From: Nymphaea colorata
Lineage: Eukaryota > Streptophyta > Magnoliopsida > Nymphaeales > Nymphaeaceae
Reading direction: 5' to 3'
Length of the DNA stretch: 64,000 nt
NCBI RefSeq assembly: GCF_008831285.2
Contig: NC_045147.1
Span: 23,770,981-23,834,980, forward strand
Below, piece by piece: positions 12,370 through 59,286 of the stretch. Under the pieces are notes generated by a model. It had not been told where the DNA came from, searched no databases, and saw only the letters and a list, made by a program, of their open reading frames with translations. Each line of letters begins with the position of its first letter. Within the stretch, counting starts at the first letter, position 1. Position numbers and translations under genes: made by a program.

Positions 12370-12376
12370 GAGGGTG

Positions 12377-12990: not shown

Positions 12991-13042
<52 letters not shown>
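12541..13042. other. Distal upstream DNA of PME-A ending in CA/GA microsatellites
   Basis: No gene seen. It ends in a (CA)n tract (about 12965-12998) followed directly by (GA)n (about 12999-13041), next to a dispersed repeat. Confidence 0.6.
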
Positions 13043-13046
<4 letters not shown>

Positions 13047-13890: not shown

Positions 13891-15144
13891 TGCCACCTGC
13901 AGCTCTATCGGCCCCCATAATGAACACTGATCCAGCTCCTCCAGACAAAACCTTTTCCCCTAAAAGTTCACGTTTCCCTGCCCAATGTTGCGCCCAAACA
14001 TCCACCAAAAACTTGTCCCCGCCCTTAACTTAGAGGTTAATGTGTTTCGGCCCATTGTTGGGCCCAAATATTCACCAGAAAGGGAAAGGGGCAAACTGCG
14101 AAGCCGCAAGGCGTGCAGGGGCAATCTGTGCATCTTGGCATGGCGCGTTGGGATTTCACAAGGTCATTGTTTCTTTTTCTCTCTCTTTGACTCCATCCCC
14201 CTTTTCTTGTTTTGATTTTGGACTTCTGATGAGCTTGCATTTGATTTGGGGGTTTTTCACATTTGATATCACATTTGTGCGTCTTTTATTCGTGCTGTAT
14301 TAGGTCATATAGGTTCTTCTCCCAATCTGTGCATCTTGGCATGGTGCTTTGCCCGTTGGGATTTCTTTCACTAGGTCAGCGTTTCTACTCTCTCTCTCTC
14401 TGCCTCTCCCCGTTTTCTTGTTTTGATTTTGGACGTTTGATGAGCTTGCATTTGATTGTGGGTTTTCACATTTGTGATTTATGTGTTCTTGCTTCTAGTC
14501 AAGCAGCGAGTTATTTATGAGAATTTTTGTTAGATTTTGATGCCATTTCTAAAAAAATGGGCTTATTTTTAGTCGACTCTAGTGGTTGTCCTTCTCAGAG
14601 TTGCTAATTACATGCTGAATCTAGTTGAATAGAATGTGGCGGTACAACTCTTGAGCATTTGAAACTTTCCGCAGGTAATAACTTTAGCCTGAATTCTACG
14701 TTTTTTTTTTGCAGTTTGCCTATGTATTCAGTGAAAAGAAGAAACTGTACAGGTCCAAGTAAATGCAGAATTAATGAATATTAATTTCATAGATTATTAG
14801 GATTAAAAAAAAAACAAGAGAGACATGAATCTTACTAGAATTTGACAGTAATCTTGGAGGGGACAACTTGCTCGGACCCAATCTTGGGATGAACTGGTTT
14901 CAGTCCCAACGCACCGCGAGTCCATGGCTGTGACCCTAGACGTCTTTTTTTTTGCAAAATGCTTTCTTTGTTGATCAGGTTTTGGAAATAAGAGAGAAAA
15001 GGTAAGGCCGATAAAAGGAAAACCCGAATGGAAAAAACTCAAGGAAGCGATGAGAAACAGGCAGTTGGCGTATGTGCAACCGCTATTAAATCACTTAACA
15101 ACAACATCACTCCACACGCTTCTTCATTTCGTAGCTTCATCTCA
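13891..15144. other. Upstream DNA of the TBL relic, with a 201 bp-spaced direct repeat
   Basis: No gene is recognised. Two direct repeats start with CAATCTGTGCATCTTGGCAT at 14122 and 14323 and run about 165 bases each. They share the string TTTTCTTGTTTTGATTTTGG and a CT-rich middle. Farther right the sequence looks like the promoter and leader of the TBL-like reading frame that starts at 15145, but no clear TATA box is seen. Confidence 0.55.
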
Positions 15145-18100
15145 ATGGATGGAGCGAAGAAGAAGGACCTGCTGCCCGCCGTCCTCACCCTCCGCCTCAA
15201 GCGCCTTCTTAGTCTGCGCGCGTGGAGGAACGCCCTTTCCGTTGCTTATGGTTTCATAACGGCTTTTATGTTCTTCACACTCTTCCTAGCACTGTGCAAT
15301 CCTGCGAGGGTCCTTTTTCGTTCTCTTTCTCCTCCTCCAGAACGACAGCCCCTCTCTCTTCTACTTCTTCTTCGTTGTTGGCCTCCTCCTCTTGCGCACT
15401 CCCTGATCCCAACTTCTGTGCTTCTGAAAAACTTAATTGCAACGGAATCTCCAAGGAAAAAGAACTAAATTCTGACGACGTGGAGCAGAGGCAGGTGGAT
15501 CGGCCTCTCTCGTTCAAGGTCCACGATGATGGGAATGATTCTGTTCCTTCCGGCAGCAACCAGCGAGAACCAAATACCGCTTCTCCAATTGCGTCCCCGT
15601 CGTCCACTGGGAATCCGACTCAAACCGTTAATGGAGTTTCCAGCGACGACCCCCTTGCCACGTCCCTTCTCTGGAAGTTGAAGACGAGCTTGAAAAGCTG
15701 CTTGTTGCGGCTAATGAAAGGTACAATATCTCGGCGGGAGAACGAGAGATTTTGCGGCAATATCGATACGGTGGCAACGCTTTCGTGGTCGGTGATTTGG
15801 AGGTGGAGAGAAGTCTAGATACCGAGGACAATATGACTAGCACTCCCGCTGTGGCCGGAGAAAACGTGGAGACGGGGAGAACTCTAGACAGCGTTACCAA
15901 TATGACTAGCACTCTCACAGTGACTCCCCCGAAGAAAATGGCACGGAAAGCCACCAATGTTGTGAAGCGTGACTGTGACTTGGAGGCGGAGATAAGTCTA
16001 AACAGCGTCAGCAATATGACTAGCAGTCCAACAGTGACTCCCCCCGAGAAAACGGCACGATCACCCGCAACGTCACCACTGTCGTGAAGAAGAACGACGG
16101 TGACGTCCCTGTAAAGATTCAGCAAGTTCATGGCACGCGCAGACAAGGGAGGAAAGAAGGAAGTAGAGAGGGTAGGCAGGGTGGCAGATTAAGACTGGTG
16201 TGAGCAGCGAACTTGGAGGATGAAGACTTGTGTGAGGACAGAAGACACCGGAAGAGAGAGGCCGAAGATCACCAAAACGGTGGGTATGGGATGACTCTTA
16301 GGGCCTGTTTGGTTGGAGGGAAAGGAAAGGAAAGGAGGGATTGCTCAATCCCTCCTTTGTTTGGTTGGCTAACTAAAAAGGAGGGAAAGGAAGGGAAAGG
16401 GGCAAAGTGTGTTTGGTTGGGAGGGAAGAGAAAGGGAAGGGAGGAAAAGGAAAGGATTGTGTAGTATAAATGCAATCCCTCCCAAATCGGACGGATTGGG
16501 AAGGAAAGGAAAGGAAGAGAGGAACAAAGTGTTGACTGCCCACAATACCCCTTCTTTCACGTTCTTAATTTTTTAAACATTTTGACTGTTAAGGGTATTA
16601 TTGTAAAGTATTAACATTTCCTTTCCTTTCCTTTCTTTTGTATCCAAACAAGCTTTTTAATGACTTCTTTCCTTTCCTTTCCATTCCATTCCTTTCCCTT
16701 CCCTTCCCTTTCCTTTCCCTCCCTTTCCATCCCTTCATTTCCCTCCCTTTCCCTTCTACCAAACAGGCCCTTATCCTCACTACCTGCAGGGTCATGCCCA
16801 TATGTAGAAACCGCCACCAATTGCTATCAAAATTGGCCGACTGAGAGAAATTATGAGAAAAGGCAACAGCAGCCGAATGACTGCAATATCCCAAGGTAAA
16901 ACAAGAAACAATATCATTCACTTACTTCTTTCATATTTTCTTAAGAAATTTTCATCCCATAGTGCCACTTTTTTGAGTAGTGCCCCCTCCCGTCAGCTAG
17001 AAAACGAACCACGTTTTTCAGTGTTATATTTTAAAAGATTAAAAGTTGTATTTAAAAAAAAAAAGTGAATACATTTCTTAATCTCGTAGGGGAAAAATGT
17101 GTAATTGTATAGAACTTGTAAAAGCAAGCACTTATTTGAGAGTAAAGTAACAAAAAAAAAAAAGTGGTCCACATCAACAAATTCAGAATTTTATTATATT
17201 TGTGACCGGATGTGAGTCTCCGAACATCTGAGTCAAAAGAGAGCTCCTCGTGTTCTTTGTGTTCTTCTTTTTGCCAAAAATCTTATTTATTATACAACTT
17301 TTTTGGCTACGAATTATTCAAGGTTGGATCCAAAGGATATGTTGAAGAGACTAAGAGGGAAGCGCCTGACTTTCATAGGTGATTCTCTCAACAGGAACAT
17401 GTGGAGGCCTCTCATTTGTCTTCTTTGGAGCTCTCTCGAAGACAAGACGAGGATGGTTTTAGTGTCCAGCCTTCATGAAATTGGAACATCCAAGGCAACT
17501 GTATTCAGATTTTTGGTCAGTTTTGAAACCTACCTCTCTAGATTTATTAAACTTTTGTCCCTAAATATTTTTCTTTTCCGTCTGAATTAAGCATTGAGAT
17601 GCTTATATTCTCTGTTTCTTGATCCTGGTGGTACAGGATTACCAATGCACCTTGGAGTTCTTTTGGCCGGCATTTTTAGTCGATGAACAGTAGATTTCTC
17701 ACCCCAATTGGACTATCAGAAAAAAAATCTTAGGCTCGACAATATTGTGACTTTTGCCCCTAGCCACAAGGATGCTGATATTTTGATCTTCAACTATGGC
17801 CATTGGTGGGTTCCTGCCAAGACCAATAACGGGTAAAATTTTGCCTCTCCAGATACCAAAATTAAAATATGCCAACAAAAAAAAAATTTCTTTTCTGCTG
17901 GTGTCCAATGATAAACAAGCAACATTGGATGCACCATTTTTCCAACCAAAAGAGAAAAAAACAAAATAAAGTGCAATTTTGTTTCCTCAATGACACTTTG
18001 GATGCAACATTTTTCTAAAGATTATTGGTGTAATTAACATGCAGAATTATGACAGGACAGACTTCTACAAACTGGAGAACAATAAGTATGGTTATCTTGA

Positions 18101-23263: not shown

Positions 23264-23527
23264 CAACGTAGATGAGTCGTGCTGATCATAGTTTGGATGA
23301 CTAGCTGTGTCACTGAGAAAAGGAAAACACACATGTGCCTAAACAATAAGTTTGAGGAAGTGCAATTTTAAGGCCCATGAATCGATTCTGATCAGTTCCA
23401 ATGCATTTTGCCGCCTAAGCATTTCTATGTTGTCATCCTTATAAAGTTACAAAAACACACCCTTGAACTATTTCTCCTGAAGAAGGGAAACGTTTCAAAG
23501 AAGTCTGACCCCTTGAGAGAGAGAGAG

Positions 23528-23752
23528 TTGCCTAATTGAGGCTGCAAGCTTTTCTCTACTTGTTAGCGACTGAGGGACCAGGGAGAAATGAGAATAGCAT
23601 TCGCGTATTTCAGTATAGCCCTTTCAAATGGTTTTGATAATAAAATTAATGTATTTGGAAAAAAATATTCCCAAAGCACATGTCTAAATTATTATGCGGT
23701 ATGCTGGGAAAAAAAAACTGTAATTATAAACGTTGCCTCTAATCTCGAGAAG

Positions 23753-23801
<49 letters not shown>

Positions 23802-24545
23802 ATGCTGTTTTTAGCAGACACATTTTTTTTTTTATGAGTTCAAGGTAACTGCTACCCACTACTCAGAGTCTTGAGATATTTCGCACTTACCTAAAACTCC
23901 GGAAACATTTTTCATCTTTTAAGATGCTGATCTCAATAAGGATCAAGTGAGCCTTGCATATATATTCGAACTCTTTTTCAAATGATGTTTTGTTTTTCGC
24001 ACATGGCAACAACCAAATGGAAATACCAAATTTGTTTATTGCAATACTCCTCTAGAAAAGATGAAATTTTATACTTTCCCATATTGACCTCTTGAATCAG
24101 AAAGCACACTGCTCTGGAGAACAAATTAAAAAAAAATAGCAGTTTTTTCCAAATTAATTTCACGAAAAGAAAATATGGGGGCATGATCTAGAGGTCTTCT
24201 CCAACAAATTCCTTTAAAAATGAGAACTTGTCTTGAAGTTTATGTCCCACCTCTCGCTAAAAGGGAAAAAGAAAATTAAGAAGAAAAAGTGATGTGAAAT
24301 ATAGTGATAACCTTACACTCTAATACCCTATCGAGCTGTACGTGTGGCGAATAAAACATGTTATTTGTTATATTATTCCACCACCATCGAATGTGAAATG
24401 CATAAAACAAATAGCATATGGCAAGCTTTGCCACCTGTTATTTGTTTTGCTCATTCCACCTGCTACAGAATGGAATGACTTAAACCCCGAAAACACTCCC
24501 AGATTGCCAGTATACGTTGAGAGCTACATAGGAAAATAGAAAAAA
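23528..24545. repeat. Dispersed repeat, copy 2 of 3
   Basis: Matches 13043-13890 closely, from GCCTAATTGAGGCTGCAAGC through a longer (TA)n tract at about 23756-23799 to the GCAAGCTTTGCCACCTG region at 24420. It then continues into sequence shared only with copy 3 (around 30000-30105). A short (GA)n run precedes it, as with copy 1. Confidence 0.75.
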
Positions 24546-32533: not shown

Positions 32534-34121
32534 ATGACAAGCACCAATATGCACTTGCCCGTATTCATCGCCATCTTTACAACCATTTTCATTGTCCTCA
32601 TCCCTTCCTCACTCTCACAGAACCTCACAACGCCTGTACCGCCGAACGAAGCCTGCAGCATCACCACCAACCCGGCCTTCTGCAGGTCCATACTCCCCCG
32701 CCAAGGCCGGTGGGACCTCTACCATTATGGCCGCTTCCTCCTCTTTCGGTCCGTTCTTCAGTCCCGGACGTTCACTTTCTTGATTGACCAAGCACTCAAG
32801 TTTAGTGCCACCACCCTCTCTGGCCAGGCAGTGGGCGCTCTCGAGGACTGCCTCCTCCTCTCCCAGCTCAATTCCAACTTCCTCGACTTCTCCTATACCA
32901 GTCTCAACGACACAGGCAACACCAACCTCCCCGACGACGAGACCGACGAACTCCACACCCTGCTCAGCGCCATCGTCACCAACCAGCAGACCTGCTACGA
33001 TGGGCTCGACCAGGCTTCCCTCTTACCTTTCCTGAGAAGCAGACGCGAGGTCTACGACCCGCTGGTTAATGGATCCGAGCTGTACCGGTCCTCCCTCGAC
33101 CTGTTCGCTCACTCCTGGCCCGGAGGGGCCACAGGCAGTGGGGCCATTGGGGTCGCCATCTGCTGGACGAAATGAGGGTGGGGCCGGACGGCGTGCCCCG
33201 TTGGGTTAACAAGTACATTTTCCGGTTGCGTTCTAATCGGAGATCGGCCGCTCAGACAGTACCGTTGGTGAAAAGCACGGTGGTTGTGGCGAAAACGGGG
33301 AAGGCGGATTTCAGGACGATCAACGACGCCATTGCAGCTGCGCCCGACAAGGTGAATGTCCAAAATGGCTACTACTTGATCAACATAAAGGCCGGGGTTT
33401 ACGAGGAGTACGTGTCGGTAAACTCGAGCAAGACGAACATAATGATGGTGGGTGCTGGGATCAACAACACTATCATCACCGGCAATCGCAGCGTCGGAGA
33501 CGGATGGACCACCTTCAATTCTGCTACATTCAGTAGGCCTCCATTTCCTTTTCTTCTATTATTTTCGTTGTCCAAGGCTGTGGTTTTATTTCTTTTGCAT
33601 CTTCCAACTTATCTGCCAGAGAGTTGAAGGAGAGATACCAACTTAACCGGTGTCCGATGCCCTCGAATTTAGTTAACAAATAGAGAATCAGAAAAGACGG
33701 TCGGATTCTGTCCTGAGAAATGCGAATCAAATAGACCCTTTGGTTCATTTTCGCCATGGAAAGATCGAATACACCATAAACCTCTTTCACATGGCTGAGA
33801 CTGAGAACAGTCATCCTTGCTCAACAGCCTTGCTAATCTTCTCTCTGTCGTTCCAATTTTATTGGATGTTTTGGAAGAGAAAACCAAGATGAGACCACCT
33901 CCTCTCTTGTAGCATGGTTGACTTCTTTCTGAATTTCTTTGACGGATCTCAGTTCAACAAACACCTGATCGTGCACCATTTCAAATTTGGACCTTTGCTG
34001 TCGAACCCAGGCACAGTTCATAAGATTCACACGAGGGTCTGATCCCAAACACCAAATCCGTGTAAGATGGATCCTGTACTTCCTAGGTCCGATCCAGCTA
34101 GCACGACCCGCTTGCCCTCAG

Positions 34122-35634: not shown

Positions 35635-37058
35635 CCGGGACCAGGATTAATCCTTAGAACGAAGATGGATAAAACGCTCTTACTCAAAGCGTGAAATGAA
35701 TTTTTTTATTACCTCATGTATGTTTTTTTCCCTCTTTCAGTTGTTGACAAGCTCTTCGTTTCATTTCTTCGTAGCCCTATGTAAGGCCATTATATATTCT
35801 GAGATGCTGGATTTTTTGGGCCTTGGTAGGCAATAATATATATCTGATCTTGAGTGATCGCTTTGGAATGCCCATTCTTCTAATTAGTTTGGTCCGTGCC
35901 CGTATATAACACGAGTTCATTAATTAGAGTATGTAATCGAATTGTGGTTGCAGTCCACAACTTCGCTTCACCATGGCCGACTGCAGCATGTGCATGGACA
36001 TGTGTCGTTGACAACTAGAAGTGAAGTCTACCCTTCATAGTCGAGCATGGCTTGATTTGGACGAAAAATGAAGTTAATTGTCGCCAAAGTCTCATCAGCA
36101 TGGGCAACCTGTGGACGGCACTGCGGGGAATTTAATATCGTTAAAAGGGATTAATGGTCGAGCCGATGCCTTTTCTTTTTATCGCTTTGCGTTTTCCTAG
36201 AGTATGGATTTCTATATATGTTGTATTACTATTATTTTACTAAGTAATGCACAAGGAATACCTTATCCATGAGGTGGTTCAATGGGAAAGAAGTAATGCA
36301 GGCTGTGAGGATGCAATACTATACAAGTGCCTGAAAGCAGCTATTACAGTCGAACAAAGAGGTCTCCTAGAGAAGTAGGGCTTGACTTACTAGTCTCCAT
36401 ATGCAGCTGTATAGCAAATGAGCTCCGATTAAAATGAGTGCACAACATTGGGCAGAACTGACAAGGTTGCCGAAAGCTTCTTTGATTATTTTATAAAGGA
36501 GGTGTAACAGAAGCATTGGTAATGCTAAAATATGAAATAAACGTCGTGGATTGACGTGAACCAAGTGCCGCACCTCTCCATCACTCACCACAAACTGGTG
36601 ATGTTGTCTGAGGCTTGAGAAATATACATATATAGCTGGCGAGCTAGCTCCACGGCACATGCTTGATCTTAAGTTTCCATTACGTTTCTTCGTAGCACCG
36701 ACAATATTATATATGAGTCTCGAGATTAACAAATCACTCTAATGAGATGAAGTGACGACATGTGCATGGCGAGATGATGGGTGCAATTTAAAAGATATCG
36801 AAGTCTTTGGGTCTTTTCATTACAATAAGGGTGCTCGATCAACACGTTGCTCATGATTTGGCTCTAGTCATTACTTTTCTGTTCCAATGCAAGTGTAAGT
36901 TATTTATGTTCGTAAAAACGAGTTCCGATTTTAAAAACAAAAAGAAAGTCTTAGACCAGTTCATACATATACAAATCCAAATAAGACCGGGCTAATAGTT
37001 GACTACGAAGTTTTAAACAGCGGGTCCCTTTTGTCCTCAGCTTCCCTATTCCGAATAA
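35635..37058. other. 3' flank of PME-B; no gene seen
   Basis: The first 150 bases are probably 3' UTR. The rest shows no recognisable coding or mobile sequence. Confidence 0.5.
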
Positions 37059-37520
37059 GGGCCTGTTTGGTTGGAGGGAATGGGAAAGAAAGGGAGGGAT
37101 TGAGCAATCCCTCCTTTGTTTGGTTGGCTAATTAAAAAGGAGGGAAAGGGAGGGAAAGAGACAAAGTATGTTTGGCTGCGAGGGGAGGGAAAGGAAAGGA
37201 AGGGAAAGGAAAGGATAGATTAGTGTAAATCCAATCCCTCCCAAATCGGACGGATTGGGAGGGAAAGGAAAGGAAATGAAGATGAAAAGTTTTTTTTGCC
37301 CATAATACCCATGAGGACCCACGTCTAAAAAGAAAAACGGAAGAAGATTTTAGTCTTTTCTTTCCTTTCCTTTCCTTTCCTTTCCTTTCTATCCAAACAA
37401 GTTTTTTAATCACCTCTTTCCTTTCCTTTCCATTCCATTCTTTTCCCTTCCTTTCCTCTCCCCTTCCCTTTCCTTTCCCTTCCTTTCCGTCCCTCCCTTT
37501 CCCTCCAACCAAACAGGGCG
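37059..37520. mobile_element. Tourist/PIF-Harbinger-like MITE, copy 2 (462 bp)
   Basis: Same family as the element at 16301: begins GGGCCTGTTTGGTTGGAGGG and ends CCAACCAAACAGGGCG, flanked by TAA on both sides (37056-37058 and 37521-37523). The left arm is purine-rich (GGAAAGG) and the right arm pyrimidine-rich. The 3' terminal bases are mutated relative to copy 1. Confidence 0.85.
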
Positions 37521-39372: not shown

Positions 39373-42300
39373 ATGACGATCTCCAAGATGCAGTTGCCCG
39401 GCCTGATCACCATTTTGGTTCTCATCTTCTCCATCATTCCTTTCTCACTCTCAGACAACCTCACCTCACCCGTCCCTCCCGACCAGGCCTGCAGCGTCAC
39501 CACCAACCCCACCTTCTGTAGGTCCATCCTTCCCAGTGGAGGTAGGTTGAACCTCTTCGAATACGGCCGCCTTCTAGTCAGCCGGTCCCTGCAGCAGTCG
39601 GCGAGCTTCTCCGGCCTCATCGACCGAGCCCTCAAGGACAACCCCAACACCCTCCCCGGCCAAGCCCACGGCGCCCTCCAGGACTGCCAACTCCTCTCCC
39701 AAATCACCTCCAACCACCTCGGCTCCTCCCTCTCTACACTCAACGGCGCCGGCTCCCCGTTCCTTCCCCTCAGGCTTGGCGACGACGTCCACACTCTTCT
39801 CAGCGGCATCGTCGCCAACCAGCAGACCTGCCACGACGGGCTCGGCCAGTCCTCCGCCTTGCACAGCATGGGCGACCTCTACGACCAGCTCGTCCATGGG
39901 TCCGAGCTCTACCGGACATCCCTCGCTGTGTTCGCCCATTCTTGGGTGCCCGAAGGCAACAATACCAAGAAAGTCGTTCAAGGTCGCCATCTGCTGGAAC
40001 AGTCCAGGGTGAGGCCGGACGGCGTTCCGCGGTGGGTCAACGAAGACCTCCTTCGGTTCGGTCCCACCAGGAGGTCGGCTCATCTGTTCATCCCTTGGGT
40101 GAAGACCACGGTGGTGGTGTCGAAGAGTGGAGAGGCGGATTTCCGAACGATCAACGACGCCATTGCTGCTGCGGCGGACAATGTGGACGCCCGGATTGGG
40201 TACTATATGATACAGATCGATCCCGGCGTTTACGAGGAGTACGTGACCGTGGGATCGAGCAAGACGAATATCATGATGGTGGGGGCTGGGATCAACGAGA
40301 CCATCATCACTGGCAGCCATAGCGTCGGAGACGGCTTCACCACCTTCAACTCCGCTACTCTAGGTGACCATGTGCTTCTTTTCATTAGACTCAGTACCGT
40401 TTCCTCTCTTTCCGTGCTAAACGAGACTCATTTAATAGCACAAAAAAGTGTGTCACATTTCCAATTTCCAACTTACACAGATGCCATGGATCAAAACATC
40501 TCCTGAATCGGAATTCCTTTTTTCCAAAGATGAAGATGAGATTTTACAACATAATGAAACTTTTAAAACCTTAGATCGTCGATGTCAATGCTTTTAGAAA
40601 CCAATTTATAGATATAGTGAAATATATAGTTTCAACATCAAAGAGAGGATTACTATTAGGAACCAATTTATAGATATAGTCAACTATATAGTTTCAACGT
40701 CAAAGTGAGGATTACTAAGTTTTTAACTTCATACTTTGTACAGCAAATGACGTCCCAACTATCCACGAAGACAGGATTTATGAAGTGTATATCATACAGA
40801 AGTTGCGCAAAGCATATCGACCCGTTCGACCGACTGGACTACTTGCATTAATTGGACGCATAAATATTACCTAATTTTCATGAACATATATATATATATA
40901 TATATTTGCATTAATTGGACGCATAAATATTATCTAATTTCATGCATATATATATATATATATATACACACAACAGGATTAGTGGTGTAGCTACGATTTA
41001 GAAACTATTTATGACTTAAAACTTTTTGAATTGCTATACAGAAGTTTGGAAAGTTTCACGGCACATGCAAAGAACTAGTTTAAATGACGTGGAGTTTTAG
41101 GATTTAAATTACATAAATCAAGTTGATACAATTAGAATTTCGATAAAAGAAAAACAAAGAGCATTGATTTCTGAAGTATAACTGGATGCAAGTTGTTTAC
41201 TTACATTGGTTTGCACATGGTTTCTGCTCTTTGTCTAGTGCTCGGATGGCGTGTCTGTAGGATCTTACCTCCAGCTTGGATCTCAAGGGACGAAGCCCAT
41301 TAACTGGTCCCGCCGTTAATGGATTCCTTCTTATAAAATAAAATCATGAGATGGGTCCACATGCTTCATCGGTAGAAACTTCGGGAGCTTCGGTCTTAGT
41401 TTCTTTGTGAAATTGGATTTGACGTTCTAGCCAACAGCCATTCTAATTTCTTCTACGATGTTTTCTATGTGTAGATATTTATTCAACATGTTAAAACAGA
41501 ACCTAGAACCTAAGCTTATGATTTGAGTATTAGATCCAAGCAAGATAAGGATGTTGACTAGATGTTGCCGTTCTAGTACTAGATCCATCAAAAAATGGAC
41601 AAACACGCGATCTGAGTTTTGATTCACGAACCCATTTAAGACCAAGTTCTTCACTAATATCTTCTTGGACTAGGATTTCATATCTAGTCTTAATTGATGG
41701 ATCCACTTACCGACTCCGTTGAACAAGAGTTGGGCACACACTCTTTTCTATGTAGAAATTTGTGCAATAAGAGACATGTCGTTTAAAAAGAATGACTTTC
41801 ATGTAATGCAGTCGTAGTTGGACAGAACTTCGTCGGCAAGGACTTCACAGTCCGGAACACGGCTGGTCCGGCCAAGGGCCAGGCAGTGGCGGTCAGGAAC
41901 GGCGCCGATCTCTCCTCCTTCTACAGATGTAGCTTTGAGGGATACCAGGACACTCTCTACACTCACTCCATGCGCCAGTTCTACCGCGAATGCGACATCT
42001 ACGGCACCGTTGATTTCATTTTCGGCGACGCGGCTGCTGTCTTCCAGATGTGCAACATGTACGCTCGGCTGCCATTGAAGGGGCAGTCCATCACGTTCAC
42101 GGCTCAGGGAAGATCGGATCCTAACGAGAATACAGGCATATCCATAATGAAGAGCAACATCATGGCGACGCCGGAGCTTCAAGAAGCCGGCTTCCCTGTC
42201 CAGTCATACCTCGGAAGGCCATGGAGGGAGTACTCCAGGACAGTGTACATGAGGTCAAACCTTGACAGCCTGATCGATCCCAAGGGTTGGTTGCCATGGT

Positions 42301-42503: not shown

Positions 42504-43393
42504 GTCGGAGCGAGTAAGATGATCATGAGAGGAAGGAGATATCGATGATGTTTATGAACAGGAAGAAGAAAATAAAAGTTTGTATTTGGTGACAAATAAG
42601 AAGTATGTATTTTTAATTCTTTCAATATAATGTTCTTTTCCTTTATTCGAGTTCGTGCTCATTCTTAGAAGTCATGACTTTTAAAAAATGCTGCAGCGTT
42701 GGCAAATTCTTTATGAACCAACGTATGATTGTCTAACGTCCCGACGTTCTAAACTTATAATGGAGCCTATAAGATCTGATGTAAAAACGGGCACGCACAC
42801 AGACACACTAAATGGAGGATTTTTTTTTTTTTTTTTTGTATTTGGATCATTCTGGGCGTCTTATAAGACAAGTTATACTGGGTCTGCTCTGAAAATATTT
42901 TGTGATCGAAAATAAGAAGGAACTGGGCCAGACCCGGGTTCAATCTAAATTTTTGCAATGGTGGCTATAATTCGATATCGACTTCGTGCTACATATATTA
43001 AATTTTTGCAATGGTGTCCAACCTGCATCAGATTCAAATTAAAGCCACCACCAATCGGCACGTCATCCTTTGAGCTGTCCAGACGGAAGATTGTTTCAGG
43101 ATCAGGTCGGGTAAGTTATGAGGGAGATGCACACATATGTCATATCAATGGAGAGAAATGGAGACCGCAAAACCAGGTCGTATCTCATAAAAAATTCCGC
43201 AAAAATGATGCTCACTTTTGCTGAATTTGAAACATGTATGAAACTATTATCATAATCGGTGTTAATTGGACAATGGTTTCGGTGGCCGACCGATTTGACT
43301 TAGTGGCCCATTCAAATTGAATGGGCGATAAACGGATTGTGTTAAGTTGCCAATTCAAGAGTGTCATATCTATATATATATATATATATATAT
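42504..43393. other. 3' flank of PME-C, ending in a TA microsatellite
   Basis: 3' UTR with AATAAA at 42571, then gene-free DNA with a T-run near 42821-42838. A (TA)n tract at about 43371-43393 marks the edge of the PME relic to the right. Confidence 0.5.
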
Positions 43394-43752
43394 GGTGCGG
43401 TAATTTCTGCTGCCATCCTGGGCGACCACAACGCTTCCCACAGCCTGGAGATCCATCCTCCTACCGGAACTGTGCCGGAAATTTTCCTTGTTGACTCAAC
43501 GGGGTACACCATCTGGTGCCACCTTTAGCTCGTCCAGCAACTGTCGACCGGTCTCGAGCTTAGGTACCCGGTAGTGGGTGAACAAGGCTAAGGATGCACT
43601 ATAGAGTCTGGGCCCATTAACGAGAGGAGCGTAGAGGTTGTGGCCTCGGTGGGAGAAGGAGGCTTGAGTAAGTCCGTCACAGCAGGTCTGCTGGTTGGTG
43701 ATGATGGCGCTCAGTAGGGTACGCACCATGTCCACTTGGTCATTCGGCAATG
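43394..43752 (-). pseudogene. PME relic: end of PMEI domain, linker and start of PME domain
   Basis: The minus strand reads LPNDQVDMVRTLLSAIITNQ, QTCCDGLTQASFSHRGH, LYAPLVNGPRLYSASLALFT, GRQLLDELKVAPDGVPR, a TGA where relatives have Trp, then VNKENFRHSSGRRMDLQAV and GSVVVAQDGSRNYRT. It is cut at both ends: on the right inside the PMEI domain and on the left at a (TA)n tract just after the PME domain begins. It is closest to the relic at 44597, which runs the opposite way. Confidence 0.9.
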
Positions 43753-44596: not shown

Positions 44597-45574
44597 TTCC
44601 ATTCTAGGAACCTCACCTGCACCTCCTTTTCTTATTCGTTTTCCTCATCCTCTTGCCCACCTTCCTCTCTCTGAGATTGCCCATTGTCTCCCCAGAGCAC
44701 GCATGCAACTTTACTGCCAACCCTTCCATCTGCAAGTCCGTCATACCTGCGGTCATCTGCTTCAACCTCTACGGCTACGGCCAATACCTCGTCAAGAGGT
44801 CTCTGTCTCAGTCGGCTGACCGGATCATCAAGAACAACGTCACCTTGCCTCCTCAGGCAGAAGGCGGTCTCAGAGACTGCCTTCTTCTCTCCGAGCTCAC
44901 CACCGACTATCTTCTCTCCTCATTAACAACCCTAAGCACCAACGGCACCACCTATCTCCCAGACGACCAGGGCGACAAGGTGCATACCCTCCTTAGCGCC
45001 ATCGTCACCAACCAGCAGACTTGCTACGAAGGGCTCACCCAAGCCTCTTTCTGGCAACGAGGCCACCAACTCCACGCCCCACTGGCGAACGAAACCAGCT
45101 CTACAAACTCTCCTTGTCGATGTTTACCTGTTCATGGGCGCCCACGTAACCCAAAGAAGACTAAGGCCGGGAGGAAGTTGTTGGACGACCTAGAGTGGGC
45201 TCGGATGCTGTGCCCCACTGGGTAAGAGGGACATCTTTAGGGCGTGCCCCGGTCCTAGGAGGATGGCCTTGCAGACGGTGGGAACTGTGGTGGTGGCTCA
45301 GGATGGCACCGGTGATTACCGTGGCAAAAAGGTTACTTTGTGATATGAGTGAAAGAGGCGTGTACAAGGAGAACTTATCGATCGATAAGAAGAAGAACTA
45401 CATAATGATGGTCGGAGACAGGCTTAGGTGGACCATCATCACCGGTAGCCGAAACGTCACGGGTGGTCGGAGACAGGCTTAGGTGGACCATCATCACCGG
45501 TAGCTGAAACGTTGCCGGTGGTCGGAGACGGGCGTAGGTGGACCATCATCACCGGTAGCCGAAACGTTTCCGGT
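44597..45574 (+). pseudogene. PME relic: degenerate first exon
   Basis: A hydrophobic leader without an in-frame Met (LHLLFLFVFLILLPTFLSL) precedes a PMEI domain (HACNFTANPSICKSVIP, GLRDC, LLSAIVTNQQTCYEGL) that lacks about eight residues in its middle. Frame changes follow near 45095 (QLYKLSLSMFTCSW lies in another frame) and near 45190 (GRKLLDDL then DAVPHWVRG). The PME domain starts with VGTVVVAQDGTGDYR, loses a segment, and resumes at GVYKENLSIDKKKNYIMMVG. It ends in a triple 55 bp repeat. There is no second exon. Confidence 0.9.
45410..45574. repeat. 3 x 55 bp tandem repeat inside a PME relic
   Basis: Copies at 45410-45464, 45465-45519 and 45520-45574 each start GGTCGGAGAC and contain GGTGGACCATCATCACCGGT. 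The unit codes for the conserved VGDxxxxTIITGSRNV stretch. As 55 is not a multiple of three, each added copy shifts the frame. Differences between copies are few. Confidence 0.95.
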
Positions 45575-49971: not shown

Positions 49972-50321
49972 TGTTATGGAAAGAGGATAAACACGCTGAA
50001 ATCAGTTGAAAGAAGATAGGAGAGATTAATGCCATCACGAATTTTTCTCAATGGGATAAGTCGCCACCTCATGTTCTAGATGATTCTCTCGATAAGAAAA
50101 GAAGCCATCTTCAGAATCTCTCAATGGCTCAACATTTATCCTTATCCCCTGTTTCTTCCCTTTCTTGCCTGTCTTTATAAATACGTAGATGTAACACAGT
50201 AAGCGAGTAACCAAGCAGTATAATAAAGTCTTTCCCTCTTTCCTCGTGAATGTAGGCTGTAATGGTTCGTGTGCCTCTTTATCTCTCTAATGCTTTATTA
50301 CTCTGTTTCTATCCCACTCCA
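49972..50321 (+). repeat. 5' LTR of the copia element (about 350 bp)
   Basis: Begins TGTTATGGAAAG and ends CACTCCA. It contains a TATA box (TTATAAATAC, near 50176) and an AATAAA signal at about 50222, in the right order. With no second LTR to compare, the ends are inferred from TG/CA and the adjoining primer site. Confidence 0.65.
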
Positions 50322-50333
50322 TATCAGAGCAGT
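50322..50333 (+). other. Primer binding site of the copia element
   Basis: TATCAGAGCAGT matches the core of the tRNA-iMet site TGGTATCAGAGC; the first three bases are degenerate. Confidence 0.6.
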
Positions 50334-51013
50334 TGTTCTTGAGAGGGAGTGCTTCATGCTGGCTGCTGTAAGGTATTATCTACTGATTCTAAAGAAATCT
50401 GGTCACCAAAGGTGACATCGGCAAGGGAGAATCATTCAAGCAGCATTGTTTTTTGTTCAAGAGGATTGTTCGTGAGTTTTTTGAGCCTGATTTAAAAGCA
50501 AATTGCAGAAGATCTAGTAGTAACCAGAGTATCGCCGGAGAACAATTTTCTTCCAGCCAAACTTCACTTTTACGGCAACGTTCTTTCTTTCCAATTTCTT
50601 TTTGGAATTGGGGATCTCTTTGCTCCGGTAACGAATTCTCTCTTCATCTTCTGGTTTTATTACACTTGTTTCGACTATTTGGTTCTTGTTATTGCTGGAG
50701 GACGGGAATCTCTGTCAAAGAAGAAATAGGGACCACGAAGGGGATATCGCTGATCGATTTCTTTCAGCGACGAATTTTTTTGGAAGTACGCTAAATGTAA
50801 ACCTTCCAAGCTTTCACCGGTCACTTGCAGCCAACCGGTGGATGAAACGTGATTCCATTGAGGTTAGGCGTCATTCTGCTGTGGGCGACGCTGTGAAGCT
50901 GACAAGACCTGAGACGAGGCCAAGCCTCATTGCGTCCTCAAATTCCTGGTGGTGAAGAAGCGAGGCTGATTTGGAAGAAGCTGGTCGTCTGTTAGCATTC
51001 TATCTTATTTTAT

Positions 51014-54000
51014 ATGGCAGCAACGCACCAAGAAGGAAGAGTCTGCAATTCAAAGAATGGGCCCTCCGATCAAGGTAATAACACTCTGAAAATTACCTCA
51101 CAACCTCTCACTGGCCCAAACTATTTAAGCTGGGCTAAGGCAGCCAGACTGTTTCTAAGCAGTCGTTCAAAGGTCGGATATATCAATGGCGACATAAAGC
51201 CACTAGCGAAGAACGATCCAAAATATCGTGAGTGGGAGTGTGAAAATGACATGGTTATGTCATGGCTTATTAATTCCATGGATTCCTCTGTTGCAAATCT
51301 TCTTCTTTATGTGGAGACAGCAAAGGATATTTGGGACAACTTGAAAGAATTATTTGGTGAGCAGAATAATCTTGCTCGTGTGTACGAAATTCAAAATGAG
51401 ATCGCTCAACTTACTATGGGAGATAAAGATATTACTCTCTACCTCGGCCATATGCGCAGCTTATATGATGAATTACTTCAGTATCGTCCAGCCACTTCAG
51501 ATCCAGAAGTATATAAAAAAAGATTTGATGAAGACAAGATTTTTAAGGTCCTTGCCGGACTTGGCAGAGAATATGAGACACTTCGCAGCCATGTACTTAA
51601 TTCCAGTCCTCTGCCTTCTTTTAATAATGTGTGTCAAATGATACAACGTGAAGTGACTCGAAGGAAAGCTATGAATGTTCCTTCAAAACTCGATGCCATC
51701 GAAGAAAAAAGTGATAAGATGGTATGTTATACAAAAGGCAACAACAAACAAAGCAACTTCAAACCAGGTGCCGACAGCTCTAATCACCAAAGGAATCAAT
51801 CTCGTTGGAAATGCACCCGCTGCAAGAAAACAGGGCACACTCGGGAACGTTGTTGGGAGTTGATTGGACGACCTAATAGAGAAAAAACTTCAAGGCCACC
51901 AGATTTTGCGAACTTTGTGACTAAAGATGATCTTGAGAAATTTTTCCAGAAGTTCGCGAAGACTACCAACCTCATTACGTCTCAACCTGTGGGGAACTCG
52001 AATGAAGGTACGAACTTTGCTTTAATGACACTTTCCAAAAGTTTATCCTGGGTAATTGATTCTGGAGCAACTGATCATGTAACTGGTGACCCAACAAGCT
52101 TAGGTGAGATAGACAAAGAACAAAAACAACTCATCTTTACTGCTGATGGGGGTCCGATTAGTGTTGATGGCATTGACAAAACTAGTTTTTTTGACAAAGG
52201 AATTAAGTCTACTGTCTTATATGTTCCAAAAATAAGTACCAGTTTGATATCTGTTAGCAAATTAACCAAATCTCATTATTGTTTGGTTATTTTCTCGTCA
52301 AAGGAGGTGATTTTTCAAGAACAGGGCACGAAGAAAGTGATTGGTAGAGGTCGAGAACATGGTGGTCTCTATGTCATGGATTCATGCGACGTTAGTCTTC
52401 TTAATAGCAATAAAAATATGAATGAGTCACACTACAAAAAATGGCACGCTCGTCTTGGACACATCTCTGATAGCAGTTTGCAGCGACTTGTTCCCAACCT
52501 TGTCACAGAATATTGGGCTTGTGATGCTTGTGAATTTGCAAAATTTACAAGGTTAACGTTTCACACTTCTAGTGAAAGGTCTTCCAATTTTTTTGATCTT
52601 GTTTTCTCTCATGTTTGGGGTCCTGCTCTTGAGGCTTCTTATTTAGGATTCAAGTACTATGTTTCCTTTATTGATGATAAATCTAGAATGACATGGATAT
52701 ATTTTCTTCAGAATAAAAGTGAGGTGCCTAAGGTATTTGAAGAATATGATCGCATGATTTTAACTCAGTACGGCATTCAAATTAAAAAACTCCGGTCTGA
52801 CAATGGTGGGGAGTATGTCAATGACACTTTGAAGTCATTCATGACAAAGAAAGGCATTGAACCTCAGTACACCTGCTTAGGGACGCCTCAGCAAAATGGC
52901 GTCGCTGAAAGGAAAAACTGTCAATTGCTTAATATTGCTCGTGCTCTTATGATGCATATGAATGTCCCTACTCAATTCTGGACGGATGCTATTGCCACTG
53001 CATGTTACTTGTCTAATAGAATTCCAAATTCTAGTATAAATTATGAAATCCCTATTCAGCTTCTTCTTGGTAGAAAGTGCTTTATTCAACATTTGAAAGT
53101 GTTTGGCTGCAAATGTTATGCTCATATTCAAGACCATCTCAGAAACAAATTTGAAAAATGTGTTGTTAAGTGTGTTTTTTTGGGATATTCTAGCAAAAAA
53201 AAGGGCTATAAATGCTATGATGTTATGTCTGGAAAACTCTTTGTCTCTCGTGATGTTAAATTTTTTGAGCAGGAACCTTTTTTTGAGGCACCAAATCAGG
53301 GGGAGAAAACCAATAATAGCTCCATGAACTCGAACTCCTCAAATTTTACCACTGAACCTGCTCGCCCCATCATCGACCCTTTTCTCGAACCAAAAGCACC
53401 TACCAATCACGATAATACATCCAGCTCACCTATTGAAGCTCCTCAACCTAGTATTAACCCCGTTGTCCCCTTCGAAGACCCTATCTCTTTACCTCAAGAC
53501 ATACCTCCTGACGACGACCAACATGTGCGTCGATCATCCCGCTTTACCAGACCACCTACAAAACTCAGTGATTATTACACCTACCTCTCTACAGACCGAA
53601 TCCATTCTATTGACCAATATTTAACCCTTAAACATCTCTCACAAACCTATAGGAACTATGTCCTCAATACTTATCTCCACATTGAACCCAAAAACTTTGA
53701 AGAAGCTACCAAACATGTTCAGTGGAAGGAAGCTATGAATGAAGAATCAAAAGCTGTAGAGAAAAATCAGACTTGGGATTTGGTGCCTCTTCCCAAGGGA
53801 AAGAAATTAGTTGGCTGCAAGTGGATATACAAGATCAAATACAAAAGTGATGGAACTATTGAACGGTTCAAAGCGAGACTCGTTGCAAAGGGGTTCACCC
53901 AAACTGAAGGAATTGACTACTCAGAAACTTTTGCTCCAGTTGCTAAAATGAATACAGTCAGAATTTTGTTATCAGTTGCTGCAAAAAAAAATTGGAACTT

Positions 54001-54835
54001 GATGCAACTAGATGTAAAAAATGTATTCCTCAATGAAGAACTCACTGAGGAAGTATACATGGAAATTCCTTCCGGTATAAGCAGTAAGAGTGGCTATGCA
54101 TGCAAACTGAAAAAAGCTCTTTATGGTCTCAAGCAATCTCCTCGAGCATGGTTTGCCCGCTTGAGTGAGGCTCTTGTTCAATATGGTTTTAAACGAATTT
54201 CGGCAGATTACACCATGTTTACTCATATTCATGAATCTAAAATTACTATCCTACTGGTTTATGTCGATGACATTATATTAACATGTGATGATGATATATT
54301 TATGTTGCGTGTGAAGACATTTCTTAACAAACAGTTTGAGATCAAGGATCTAGGAGTCTTGCGGTACTTCTTGGGGATTGAAGTTGCACATTCAGATAAA
54401 GGTATTTTCATATGTCAGAGAAAATATACTTTGGATCTACTTAAGGAAACAGGTAACATTGGAGCAAAAGCTGCCGACACACCTCTTGAAATAAATTGTA
54501 AATTGAAAACTAATGAGGGTGACATTGTCGAAAATGTCCAAAGCTTTCAAAAGCTTGTTGGAAAACTCATTTATCTTACTGTCACCAGACCAAATATCAT
54601 GTATGTTGTCAGTCTTATAAGCCAATTCATGCACAAGCCCAGGTCTTCACATGTCGAAGCAGCTCATAGAATCCTTCGATATTTTAAAGGAACTCCTGGG
54701 AAAGGAGTTTTAATGAAGCGGGGGCAGACATTGGATGTTGTTGGATATTGTGATGCTGATTGGGCAGGCGACCCAAATGATAGGAGATCAACTTCTGGAT
54801 ACTGCACCATTGTTGGGGGTAATCTCGTCACATGA
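51014..54835 (+). CDS. Copia gag-pol polyprotein, 1273 codons, stop in RNase H
   Basis: Codes for the proteins of retrotransposon copying and integration in one frame. Gag/UBN2 region at residues 30-220 (LTGPNYLSWAKAARLFL); CCHC knuckle at about 267 (CTRCKKTGHTRERC); protease with WVIDSGATDHVTG at about 349; pre-integrase HHCC (KWHARLGHIS, CDACEFAKFTR); integrase core with D near 554 (FIDDKSRMTW), RSDNGGEYVN and PQQNGVAERKN; RT starting WKEAMNEESKAVEKNQTWDL, with the active site YVDDIIL near 1083; RNase H with CDADWAGDPNDRRSTSGYC. The frame ends at GNLVT plus TGA, where relatives have Trp. Beyond the stop KSKKQSVVARSSAEAEYRAM is still readable to 54912. The frame is otherwise uninterrupted, so the element is young. 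Confidence 0.95.
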   Translation: MAATHQEGRVCNSKNGPSDQGNNTLKITSQPLTGPNYLSWAKAARLFLSSRSKVGYINGDIKPLAKNDPKYREWECENDMVMSWLINSMDSSVANLLLYVETAKDIWDNLKELFGEQNNLARVYEIQNEIAQLTMGDKDITLYLGHMRSLYDELLQYRPATSDPEVYKKRFDEDKIFKVLAGLGREYETLRSHVLNSSPLPSFNNVCQMIQREVTRRKAMNVPSKLDAIEEKSDKMVCYTKGNNKQSNFKPGADSSNHQRNQSRWKCTRCKKTGHTRERCWELIGRPNREKTSRPPDFANFVTKDDLEKFFQKFAKTTNLITSQPVGNSNEGTNFALMTLSKSLSWVIDSGATDHVTGDPTSLGEIDKEQKQLIFTADGGPISVDGIDKTSFFDKGIKSTVLYVPKISTSLISVSKLTKSHYCLVIFSSKEVIFQEQGTKKVIGRGREHGGLYVMDSCDVSLLNSNKNMNESHYKKWHARLGHISDSSLQRLVPNLVTEYWACDACEFAKFTRLTFHTSSERSSNFFDLVFSHVWGPALEASYLGFKYYVSFIDDKSRMTWIYFLQNKSEVPKVFEEYDRMILTQYGIQIKKLRSDNGGEYVNDTLKSFMTKKGIEPQYTCLGTPQQNGVAERKNCQLLNIARALMMHMNVPTQFWTDAIATACYLSNRIPNSSINYEIPIQLLLGRKCFIQHLKVFGCKCYAHIQDHLRNKFEKCVVKCVFLGYSSKKKGYKCYDVMSGKLFVSRDVKFFEQEPFFEAPNQGEKTNNSSMNSNSSNFTTEPARPIIDPFLEPKAPTNHDNTSSSPIEAPQPSINPVVPFEDPISLPQDIPPDDDQHVRRSSRFTRPPTKLSDYYTYLSTDRIHSIDQYLTLKHLSQTYRNYVLNTYLHIEPKNFEEATKHVQWKEAMNEESKAVEKNQTWDLVPLPKGKKLVGCKWIYKIKYKSDGTIERFKARLVAKGFTQTEGIDYSETFAPVAKMNTVRILLSVAAKKNWNLMQLDVKNVFLNEELTEEVYMEIPSGISSKSGYACKLKKALYGLKQSPRAWFARLSEALVQYGFKRISADYTMFTHIHESKITILLVYVDDIILTCDDDIFMLRVKTFLNKQFEIKDLGVLRYFLGIEVAHSDKGIFICQRKYTLDLLKETGNIGAKAADTPLEINCKLKTNEGDIVENVQSFQKLVGKLIYLTVTRPNIMYVVSLISQFMHKPRSSHVEAAHRILRYFKGTPGKGVLMKRGQTLDVVGYCDADWAGDPNDRRSTSGYCTIVGGNLVT

Positions 54836-54912
54836 AAGAGTAAAAAACAGTCTGTAGTTGCCAGATCAAGCGCCGAAGCAGAATACAGAGCCATGGTAGC
54901 ACGCACATGTGA

Positions 54913-57900
54913 ACTGATATAATGGAATGAAATTCACGATAAAATATAGAAAAATATATGAAACGAATAAAAAAACTCTCATTCTCTCTCTAAACATATG
55001 AGTGACCTAAAATTCACATGTAATGAAAAACAAAATTGATAAAACATGCTAAGAAATATTTGCCAACCAAAATACTCTATATCTGTGTGTGTGTGCATAT
55101 ATGAAAGACCTAAAATCAATATACAGTGAAAAAAAAACCTAATAAAATATGCAAAAAAAAACATACAACCAACAAAAATACTTTCTCTTGCTCTTTCATT
55201 CCCTGTATACAAGTGAATTACCTAAAAATCAAGATACGAAGAAAAGAATACCTACTAAAAAATGTAAAAAAGTATGAGCCAGCTACAAATACAGACTTGC
55301 CACGGATTCTGCATTCTTGCTTTCAGCAAGTATCTTTTCTTTTTCTAACAGAATTGAGATGGGAACAAAAAAACATAAGAAAAGACCCATTGAATGACTG
55401 GCTTCCTACAAGGATATCTCTTTTAATAAACAAAGAATTGGTCAGAACAATCATACATTAAATTCAACTGAAAAGGTCGAGCAACCCAAATTCCATTAAA
55501 TCTTAATTGGTTGGCAGAAACTCATTCAAAAATATCAAATCCTTGCAATAAAACACAATGCAAAAGCAAAAAATGGAAGCAAGTGCTAGTGGGCATGCCT
55601 GCAAGACTTTAAGACCTTGAAGATGAGATGATCTATTCCACAAGCATGGTCAATGGTCCATTGTTCCACTAGCTCAGACAACAGGGCATATATGGCTCCA
55701 AGCTATTGATGTTAGGTATTTTAACAAACACTTGGATTGCATCAACATGACAAAGAAGAAACCCCAAACTTCCTTTCAACAATCCCTCGTGTGCACCAAC
55801 ACGATCAAAGAGGCCTACCTCTACTACGACCCGAGCCTCCACAAAAGCAGTAGATCGAGAACAACCATTATTGAGAGAGTGCTTCCACAAAGGCAGTAGA
55901 TCAAGCTGTCATTGTTGAAATACCTACGTCAACTAAACCAACACCTGAGATAGACTGCGAGGAGAGAGTACACCTCGAGTGAGGGATCGAGGATTTTGAG
56001 CGGGGTTTCGAACGAGCATTTAGAAAAAATGTTCCAAGGGTGGGGCCATTACAAGTAAGAAAGTGTTTTTGTGTTCTTCATGGACACAAGAACACTTTAT
56101 CCTCCACTGTTTTTGACAACCGTTTGGTGAGTATCACCTCCTTCCAAGGACAGGTGTTCTTGGAACAACACTTACATATACCAAACGCTCCTGTAAGGAA
56201 TGCAAGGAACAAACTCCATTTCGATATGGCAGCCGCTTATAGCTTAAAATTCATAAATGCATCCCTGAGTTGAGCTGATTAGACAGGCATTATGCGCACA
56301 TTGTCTAGAAATTTATCCTCTTTCCTTCTTGTAATTGAGTTCGAAGGGAAACCTGGACCTTGGGAAATAGCAGGAAAACCCCTTCTCAGAGGGAGATGCA
56401 GCCCTCTTTTCTGAAGAGTCACCAACAAGGAAAGGAACACAATCCTCTTATATCGAGTTTTGTTAACTTGGTGACGGCTTACCAACAATTTCATGCTAAT
56501 GAATTTCCACTTGGTCGACTCTTTTCAAGTACTTAGTGGATAGATCAAATCAAAAACAGTAAAACAAAAAGCTGACTGCTTTCACTTGCTTTGTTGACCT
56601 TAGTTTTACAAAAGGATTACAAAGCTAGAGCCCACAATAGAGTCACATATATTGTTATACAATTGCTGGGGAAACCGCACAAAGCCCTAGTATCCTCCAA
56701 CCGTACACTGGAAATAATGTTCTGAAACAATTAGAAATAACCGCCCAATAGGCAAGCGAATAACATATCGCTAGCCGCACATCTTTCCAAACTTATAAAA
56801 TAGACCCTCAAATAATCATTTATGTGATAAGATAAAATTGCCACTGAACTCAAAGTTAATCTTTTTAAGCATAAAGTTTGCTCGGCAAGTTAACTGCACG
56901 CCGTTTGTCCACCATGGCCTCATTCTTTGTCACGAGCAACTTCCCTCTTTCATCACTACCCATCAAGTTCGACACCTCTTCTCGGGATCAAATCCGTCCA
57001 CCTCGAAACTTGCCAGTCACCTGGCTGTTGAAACTAAAAATGATTTAGGAATGGAATATGATATATATTGATTTCATTTAAACTTCTTTCTCTTGATACG
57101 AAAGAACATTCTCGTTAAATAGAACTAGCTAGTTGTTAAACAAGTTTGGATTCAGGAAGGGCACCTTTGTAGCCGGCAACCACGCACCTCCATCGATTAA
57201 ACGACCAACAGTAAATTTTCTGGCATCAGCTGCGCTCATCAAATGGTAGCCAGGCCAATCCACCCTGTGCCTGGTACTTGCGCCTGCACCCCTGTTCCTG
57301 TTTTCCCCGTAGTATAAGGTCCTCAGTGCAAAATCACCAGCCCAAGGTCACCAACCAGCAGGGTTTATGAAGCCACCAATGTTAGAGAGCATGATCACTG
57401 TCCTCGAATATTCCTTCCACGTCCTACCAAGATAGGACTGCACCACGCCGCGAGCTGCCGCCACCTTCAGCCATGGACCGGCCAAGATGTTGCTATGTGT
57501 AATGGCAATGCCGGTCTTCCGATATGGACATGCTGTGCCCTGAGCCGTCACCATGTTCGCCTGGCCCAACAATGGCATCCGAGCGTAGATGTTACAGAGT
57601 TGATCATATAAAAATGGTTGGTTTACTGTATTAAGCAGATGAGTGGTTGTGGTGGCCTTCAACCGCGATCAATCCAGAAATTTTGGTGAGAGAGCACCAA
57701 TATGTCAACTTTTAATTAAGAAAAACAATAGTATATAAATATATGTGTGTTAAAAAAGCAAGTGAATTTAGGGGGCGCTTCAATTTACGTGTCTCACTCT
57801 AAACTCACATGACAAACGTCTGCACACTGAAACGCACCTTATGCACTTAGACATACTAATAAAAACGTTTTAAAATTGATTCACTTGCTGGATGTAAATT

Positions 57901-58405
57901 TTAAAATTCACTTAGATTACGGGAAAAAATGAAGAAGGTTTAGATACGGGATCACATGCTTCTTGGGTAGAAACTTAGGCTGCTTTGGTATTAGTTCCTT
58001 TGTGAAATTGGATTTGACGTTCTAAGTTCTAACGAACAGCCATTCTAATTTCTTCTACGATGTTTTCTATGTGTAGATATTTACTCAACATGTTTAAACA
58101 GAACGCAGAACCTGACGTTGTGCATATGATTTGAGTATTAGATCCAAGCAAGATAAGCATGTTGACTAGATGTTGCCGTTCTAGTACTAGATCCATAAAA
58201 AAATGGACAAACACGCGATCCAAGTTTTGATCATTTTAAGACCAAGTTCTTCATTAGTATCTTCTTGGGCTTGGATTTCGTATATAGTCTTAAATTGATG
58301 GATCCGCTTACCGACTCCGTTGAACAAGAGTTGGGCACGCACTCTTTTCTATGTAGAAATTTGTGCAATAAGCGACATGCCACTTAAAAAGAATGACTTT
58401 CATGT
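54913..58405. repeat. Mosaic duplicated block (block B): PME-A flank/exon joined to PME-C intron
   Basis: 54913 to about 57950 matches 7764-11150 and about 57950-58405 matches 41353-41804, both in direct orientation. The inner junction lies in a short shared stretch (GGGATC / GGGTCC before ACATGCTTC). The block ends at TTTCATGT, seven bases before the PME-C acceptor. It differs from its parents by deletions of about 430 bp and 395 bp, a 680 bp insertion (about 56370-57045, no gene seen in it) and point changes. A small segment at 57761-57800 (GGGGGCGCTTCAATTTACG) has no counterpart in block A. Confidence 0.85.
57154..57601 (-). pseudogene. PME relic: partial copy of PME-A exon 2
   Basis: The minus strand reads CNIYARMPLLGQANMVTAQG, KTGIAITHSNILAG, VVQSYLGRTWKEYSRTVIML, NIGGFINPAGW, a TGA, and then DFALRTLYYGE through GGAWLPATKVPF. 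Compared with PME-A, a 395 bp deletion removes the part with GYQDTL and GTVDFIFG, GRPW has become GRTW, a Ser codon has become a stop, and the last codons are deleted. It cannot be an enzyme. Confidence 0.92.
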
Positions 58406-59214
58406 GAAACACTTCATTTATTTTCTAAAAAAGCAAGAAATCCATGCTAAAATTATTCCACCGAATCCCAACTGGGGTCCATAAAAACCCTTCTTGCTTG
58501 CTGTCAATGAGAAGCAGTGTTCAAAAGGTGATGAAAGGGACAAGCAACTTTGGAGGCAGCCGCGCCGCCCTTGACTGACAGTCTTACATAGCGAGCCTAG
58601 CAAGCCAGCCAGCTCATTCACCGCAAATTTATAGGCGCGTCAATGGATTGGAATATGCGAAGCAATTCCAATCCATATCAGGTTGGTTGATTCCAATTTA
58701 ATCGACCGTAAACCATTTCAACTTACTGGCCAATTCCTGAGTATCACGCGTTAGCTTTCTACTTACTTTTAAATATTTTTAGACTTTACGTTTTTCTGTT
58801 CTTAAGTAATATTTTAAAAGTGATTTTATAATATTTTCAGTCGATTCATAACTTACTAACTGAGTCGGTGAATCAGCTTCACACCCATTTAGTTCACAAA
58901 CCGACTTTTGCAACAAGAATATGAGCTAGTTGTCAACGTGTAAATGAAAATACTTTTAAAGTGAACGAGACATCCTCCCCGAGTCACAAATGACGTCAAA
59001 TTCGCCATATCACAGAAGGGTTGCCGTCAAAATGAGAAGCTGTACTGCACATCATATAGACTTTCCCACTTAAACCTCAAAAACTGTGATTGTTTCTCCA
59101 AATGTATACAATAGACGAATTTTAACATAAATTGCTTACAACTGGAAGATGGATTTCAGAAAAAGAACGTTTCATAAATTCATTCCGCGGTTTTCCATGG
59201 GAAAGCGAGGACTG
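58406..59214. other. Upstream region of PME-D; no gene seen
   Basis: AT-rich, without recognisable coding or mobile sequence. The final 75 bases hold the TATA box and leader. Confidence 0.5.
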
Positions 59215-59222
59215 CTATATAA
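59215..59222 (+). promoter_or_regulatory. Likely TATA box of PME-D
   Basis: TATATAAG about 65 bases before the ATG at 59287. The leader ends in a (GA)n tract (59268-59286) that touches the start codon. Confidence 0.7.
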
Positions 59223-59286
59223 GCCCCCATCTATCGGACAAGTAAAGCACACTCGGCTAGCAAGCTAGAGAGAGAGAGAGAGAGAG

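Follow-up and report, generated by a model that had tools for sequence, protein, structure and literature searches.

A mosaic relic of two genes for pectin methylesterase (PME), a cell-wall enzyme, occupies positions 54917-58405 of the 64,000-nucleotide stretch of Nymphaea colorata DNA analyzed here (the window; C10:23770981-23834980). Self-BLAST and global alignment identify it as a copy of PME-A 7769-11148 joined to a copy of the terminal 447 bp of the PME-C intron (41358-41804). The reading we favor, at a probability of about 0.55, is that a local tandem duplication in the PME array, followed by deletions, left this block as a dead remnant. The case offers an unusually readable example of loss and fusion among members of a tandem gene family, with steps that can be partly ordered in time. 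It owes this readability to three similarly diverged relics, a retrotransposon whose dating marks one edge as secondary, and an indel that can be polarized.

Composition and decay of the mosaic block

The region is an array of PME genes and gene fragments in both orientations, reaching at least from -44 kb to +110 kb in window numbering (tblastn) and carrying Pectinesterase and PMEI domains (Pfam). PME-A (8-12 kb) and PME-C (39-42 kb) are paralogues within this one array; PME-D lies between them, and PME-E (59-61 kb) and PME-F (63-65 kb) follow. PME-A has open frames at 12333-11212 and 10787-9981, and a splice-model search returned no model for it; just 5′ of its exon 1, an 82-bp tandem duplication with a 98% match lies at 12376-12544. 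Exon 1 of PME-D (32534-33471) switches frame between 33118 and 33151 (tblastn), indicating either a pseudogene or an assembly indel, and the PME-D intron includes a minus-strand match to U6 snRNA at 33778-33884 (57.9 bits; gathering threshold, 44). Within the PME-C intron, both strands of 40880-40988 match many places in the genome, marking this stretch as palindromic and repeated.

The sources of the block are the 3′ flank, exon 2, and part of the intron of PME-A (7769-11148, minus strand) and the final part of the PME-C intron (41358-41804, plus strand). Self-BLAST resolves six pieces, all six aligned on the plus strand and in source order (E-values of ~1e-32 to 0). Three relics of the PME-A 3′ flank come first, at 54917-56169 (plus strand; A 7769-9045, 88.9% by self-BLAST), 56156-56362 (plus strand; A 9470-9699), and 57050-57153 (plus strand; A 9703-9808), with 687 bp present in the block and not in A (56363-57049) between the second and third. 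A truncated PME-A exon 2 pseudogene follows at 57156-57602 (minus strand; A 9996-10442, 91.7%, gap-free), then a relic of the PME-A intron at 57608-57953 (minus strand; A 10842-11148) and a relic of the 3′ end of the PME-C intron at 57953-58405 (plus strand; C 41358-41804, 87.9%). Missing from the block are A 9046-9469, 9809-9995, and 10443-10841. A preliminary description of this DNA had proposed a mosaic of two PME loci with all parts in direct orientation, which both alignments bear out; its edges are corrected here to 54917, 7769, 11148, and 41358, a few bases inward.

Substitution divergence of the block from its sources is ~7.6%, with changes at 176 of 2,288 sites in the A parts and 31 of 438 in the C part (207 of 2,726 jointly). 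By segment, the fractions are 0.077, 0.062, 0.087, 0.083 (exon), 0.075 (intron), and 0.071 (C part), a uniform divergence across all six (chi-square p = 0.95). Because the A and C parts are equally diverged, the data support about the same age for both; the block is no chimera of the present-day sources.

Decay is evident in the exon 2 relic, which has 1 in-frame stop in 149 codons. When exon changes were polarized with PME-C, D, E, and F, only 2 of 20 on the block lineage were synonymous, vs 5 of 11 along the A lineage; 6 changes were assigned to neither. The block also lacks roughly the first third of exon 2 together with the splice acceptor (within 10443-10841). This exon piece is a pseudogene. 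Loss of conserved A coding sequence marks the absence of 10443-10841 as a deletion in the block.

Two other length differences probably have their cause in A. A relative on contig C7 crosses the site of A's extra 424 bp (9046-9469) uninterrupted, as the block does, so this difference is probably an insertion in A and not a deletion in the block; the likeness of the C7 relative stops 20-30 bases beyond the site. The 687 bp at 56363-57049 have a single genome match, namely themselves; given that no further match exists, loss of older sequence from A is probably the likelier explanation than entry of a transposon into the block. The first 365 bp of the block are a dispersed repeat, and the next ~900 bp are a second sequence; both have relatives elsewhere at 68-85% identity, those of the second on other contigs. 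Both stretches sit at the equivalent place in A and in the block and are therefore older than the duplication.

Junction and edges

Homology to A runs to 57953 (A 11148) and homology to C begins at 57953 (C 41358), leaving 1 base in common and no filler bases. The preliminary description had placed the join in a few shared bases. Strict overlap is a single base, whereas random joins of the two introns share at least 1 base with P = 0.46, and we reject the shared bases as evidence because the overlap matches chance. In the 10 bases left of the join, A and C agree at 6 (P = 0.03), which hints weakly at microhomology at best. The same description had the block end just before the PME-C splice acceptor, and this is confirmed: it stops after C 41804, 7 bases short of exon 2, taking 41812 as the first exon 2 base in a splice model (the models for PME-C and PME-D are rough). 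PME-A and PME-C exon 2 share 71% identity in inverted orientation (self-BLAST). One could suppose that the second copies of these exons formed an inverted repeat, of which one arm was lost, and that the block therefore ends at the C exon; this idea arose after the fact and is weak enough to be dropped. The right flank of the block (58406-59266, plus strand), upstream of PME-E, has only itself as a genome match.

On the left, the block abuts a Ty1/copia element (49972-54920, plus strand) that extends from its 5′ LTR to RNase H, with gag to RT assigned by Pfam and a by-eye motif that we take to be RNase H. The element ends within RNase H and lacks ~664 bp, including the 3′ LTR, relative to the copy L036. 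Its family match continues to 54920 and A homology starts at 54917, so that 4 bases (54917-54920) are common to both. The window element differs from its nearest copy at 47 of 2,104 sites. In a tree built with five of nine fetched relatives (four partial matches were left out), it carries 25 private changes in 2,062 gap-free columns on a terminal branch of 0.016, vs 0.038 for half of the block-source divergence. At 0.038 and assuming equal neutral rates, 25 or fewer changes in 2,062 columns have P ~1e-12, and 34 or fewer in 2,107, the count matching the branch length, have P ~3e-9. Coding decay points the same way: the element has 1 stop and 0 frameshifts in 1,308 codons, whereas a simulation of 4% decay gives ~7 stops and 27 indels, and at most 1 stop at P ~0.01.

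Assuming similar neutral rates, these comparisons show the copia insertion to be younger than the block. The left edge of the mosaic is thus the edge of a later deletion, and the original block presumably extended further left. Position 7769 of A, which corresponds to this edge, falls within internal repeats (7709-8158), and a microsatellite in A lies close by; a left edge at that microsatellite as the original breakpoint is rejected, the edge being that of the later copia deletion.

Origin of the mosaic

A second relic came to light through self-comparison of 164 kb that include the window. It is a copy of PME-F exon 1 at 43391-43749 (minus strand; 93.9%, gap-free, direct) whose source, 64233-64591, lies just past the window. 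PME-F is its best match in the genome (94%), and the next match of like length reaches 71%. With 22 changes in 359 sites, it does not differ in divergence from the block (207 of 2,726; Fisher p = 0.39), and the seven segments obtained by adding it remain uniform (chi-square p = 0.90). Its left end adjoins an AT run, and its flanks showed no match to the surroundings of PME-F. Beside it, 44686-45458 hold an older inverted F-like exon 1 relic at ~69-79%.

Among the relics, F1 comes first (43 kb), followed by A2 and C2 (55-58 kb), with E directly after. Given sources in the order A-C-F, these are the positions that a tandem duplication from A to F predicts, and the mosaic can be explained without template switching. 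Under this favored reading, a unit of PME-A, D, C, E, and F would have been duplicated in tandem to give A D C E1 F1 / A2 D2 C2 E F. The first copy would have retained A, D, C, and the scrap of F at 43391-43749, and the second copy E, F, and the scraps of A and C that make up the block; E1 and D2 would have disappeared, and F1, A2, and C2 would have lost most of their length. One deletion, sealed by end joining without notable homology, would have run from the A intron to the end of the C intron and created the join at 57953. The copia element would then have inserted to the left of the block, and a further deletion would have taken its 3′ end along with whatever lay left of the block. The copies, their equal divergence, order, and orientation, and the pseudogene decay are observed, whereas we infer that there was one duplication, how much was deleted, and that end joining made the repair. 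The colinearity argument uses three pairs and was spotted post hoc, and the F relic could instead be an independent patch (359 bp, beside the AT run).

Besides one duplication, the favored reading calls for several deletions; one of these would span ~30 kb as the loci now lie, or less had the interval expanded afterward. Within 42.5-59.3 kb, no partners from D, E, 11149-41357, the left of A, or the right of F were found beyond the A, C, and F pieces, in a 164-kb self-comparison that used pairs of at least 150 bp and at least 76% and in finer searches of parts of it. Since no trace of the remaining unit appears, the losses would include the ~30 kb that separate A from C and a further several kb or more. 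Another scheme, with A-to-D and block-to-E as the duplication halves, was rejected because the D-E pair is too old (exon 2 identity of 80.5% between D and E, vs 91.7% between A and the block exon). The preliminary description had argued that simple unequal crossing over does not explain a mosaic of sources ~30 kb apart. That argument fails, because A and C keep their order and orientation and a tandem A-to-C duplication with an interior deletion yields the same join; where order and orientation persist, the distance between sources today is no evidence for template switching.

The preliminary description had instead offered template switching as a plausible cause. In this account, ~3 kb of PME-A and 0.45 kb of the PME-C intron were copied in one event into a break or stalled fork, as patch repair with SDSA filler or through a replicative switch; it is a possible account, if a less probable one, and it is not needed, since colinear duplication plus deletions suffices. 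It requires fewer large losses, and the equal divergence of the A and C parts speaks for it, as do the AT run at which the F relic begins and a CT/GT microsatellite in A, 20 bp outside the left edge (P = 0.027 for such closeness). Passages in PMC4423477 and PMC3445842 also document filler copying at plant breaks. However, the left edge is not original, so its microsatellite may not matter, and the one-base overlap at the join is at chance level. Microsatellites of six or more units are distant from the other ends (1,821 bp from 11148, 393 from 41358, 839 from 41804, and 357 from the right end of the F relic), with a shorter GA run beyond A 11148. By our reckoning, source order and orientation would both be kept in only ~1/8 of random placements, and the published fillers, 1-123 bp in rice in those passages and 1-131 bp in maize (PMC2686159), are well under 3 kb. 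More doubtful still is one burst that combined the 3-kb and 0.45-kb patches, from PME loci ~30 kb apart, with the 359-bp patch of PME-F exon 1 at about the same time; if true, a single burst of template switching reshuffled a plant array with copies far exceeding ordinary filler length. The data lean toward duplication with deletion over template switching.

We searched the assembly (407.8 Mb, 783 contigs) with a procedure that skips very common words and scores the best candidates only. The whole block gave 55 matches (best 40 of 67 candidates scored), none of which, the block itself aside, combines A and C parts; the refuting case named in the preliminary description, a continuous third locus arranged in this order, does not occur among the matches listed. 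The PME-C intron gave 92 matches (best 40 of 48 candidates scored), two of which cover its last 447 bp, at the source and in the block. These results bear on a transposable element, or its cargo (Pack-MULE, Helitron, or solo LTR), as the origin of the C part or the whole block, which we consider very improbable. The dispersed relatives of the A part's first 365 bp and of the ~900 bp after them would fit such an origin, as would the 5 inverted bases, seen by eye, that the two ends of the C part share. The dispersed parts, however, are co-located in A and the block and so predate the duplication, and inspection by eye of both ends, at the source and in the block, revealed neither a target-site duplication nor a longer terminal repeat. 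Found only at the source and in the block among the matches listed, the C part looks single-copy and unlike a transposon, and we reject a transposon origin for this intron piece. An assembly artifact is the least probable account of all, given that the block is 7-8% off its sources with many indels, not near 100% identical; the surrounding 164 kb contain no N, and the genome matches the right flank at one place only.

Relation to known systems

Tandem plant gene families evolve by birth and death. The present array resembles such families in its two orientations and its mixture of intact genes, truncated copies, and fragments, with no difference in kind. The PME block is ordinary birth-and-death in a tandem array, part of the ordinary turnover of plant genomes, and its value is that of a worked example and not of a new mechanism.

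The closest published case that we found, going by the portions of the report consulted, is the chimeric p2/p1 gene beside the maize P1-wr cluster, where neighboring paralogues were fused in an intron with a ~10 kb deletion (Goettel and Messing 2009, PMC2686159). End joining was proposed there, and the join holds a 50-bp filler (PMC2686159). As in maize, two tandem paralogues of one array are joined in their introns without long homology. Unlike the maize join, the PME join has one base in common and no filler, and what it yielded is a truncated pseudogene; another relic lies elsewhere. The PME mosaic may accordingly be filed with chimeric paralogues that arise through non-homologous joining in a tandem array. 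Break repair in grasses provides a further comparison: filler DNA is inserted, and non-collinear gene fragments and pseudogenes can result, as described in parts of PMC3445842 and PMC4423477. Copies of other DNA at a break are the shared feature, whereas the rice fillers are short. For the PME block, whose left edge is the younger copia deletion and whose right flank has no second copy in the genome, no empty site with rejoined flanks could be recognized. In the literature searched, no title or abstract concerns the present PME array, and the word "pectin" is absent from the main text of the water lily genome paper as available in PMC7015852.

Other repeats and PME sequences were observed in and around the array. 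A direct repeat of ~0.87 kb (13029-13899 and 23515-24437; K2P, 0.059) has a GA run before each copy, and clear LTR or transposon ends were not found for it. A pyrimidine-rich direct repeat pairs 16300-16767 with 37058-37517 at ~10% substitution divergence. Past the window, 74384-74720 and 79031-79369 form a direct repeat of very recent origin (98.8% across 339 bp). Contig C5 (25985155-26111475) carries a second large PME array, with runs of exon 1 and exon 2 matches.
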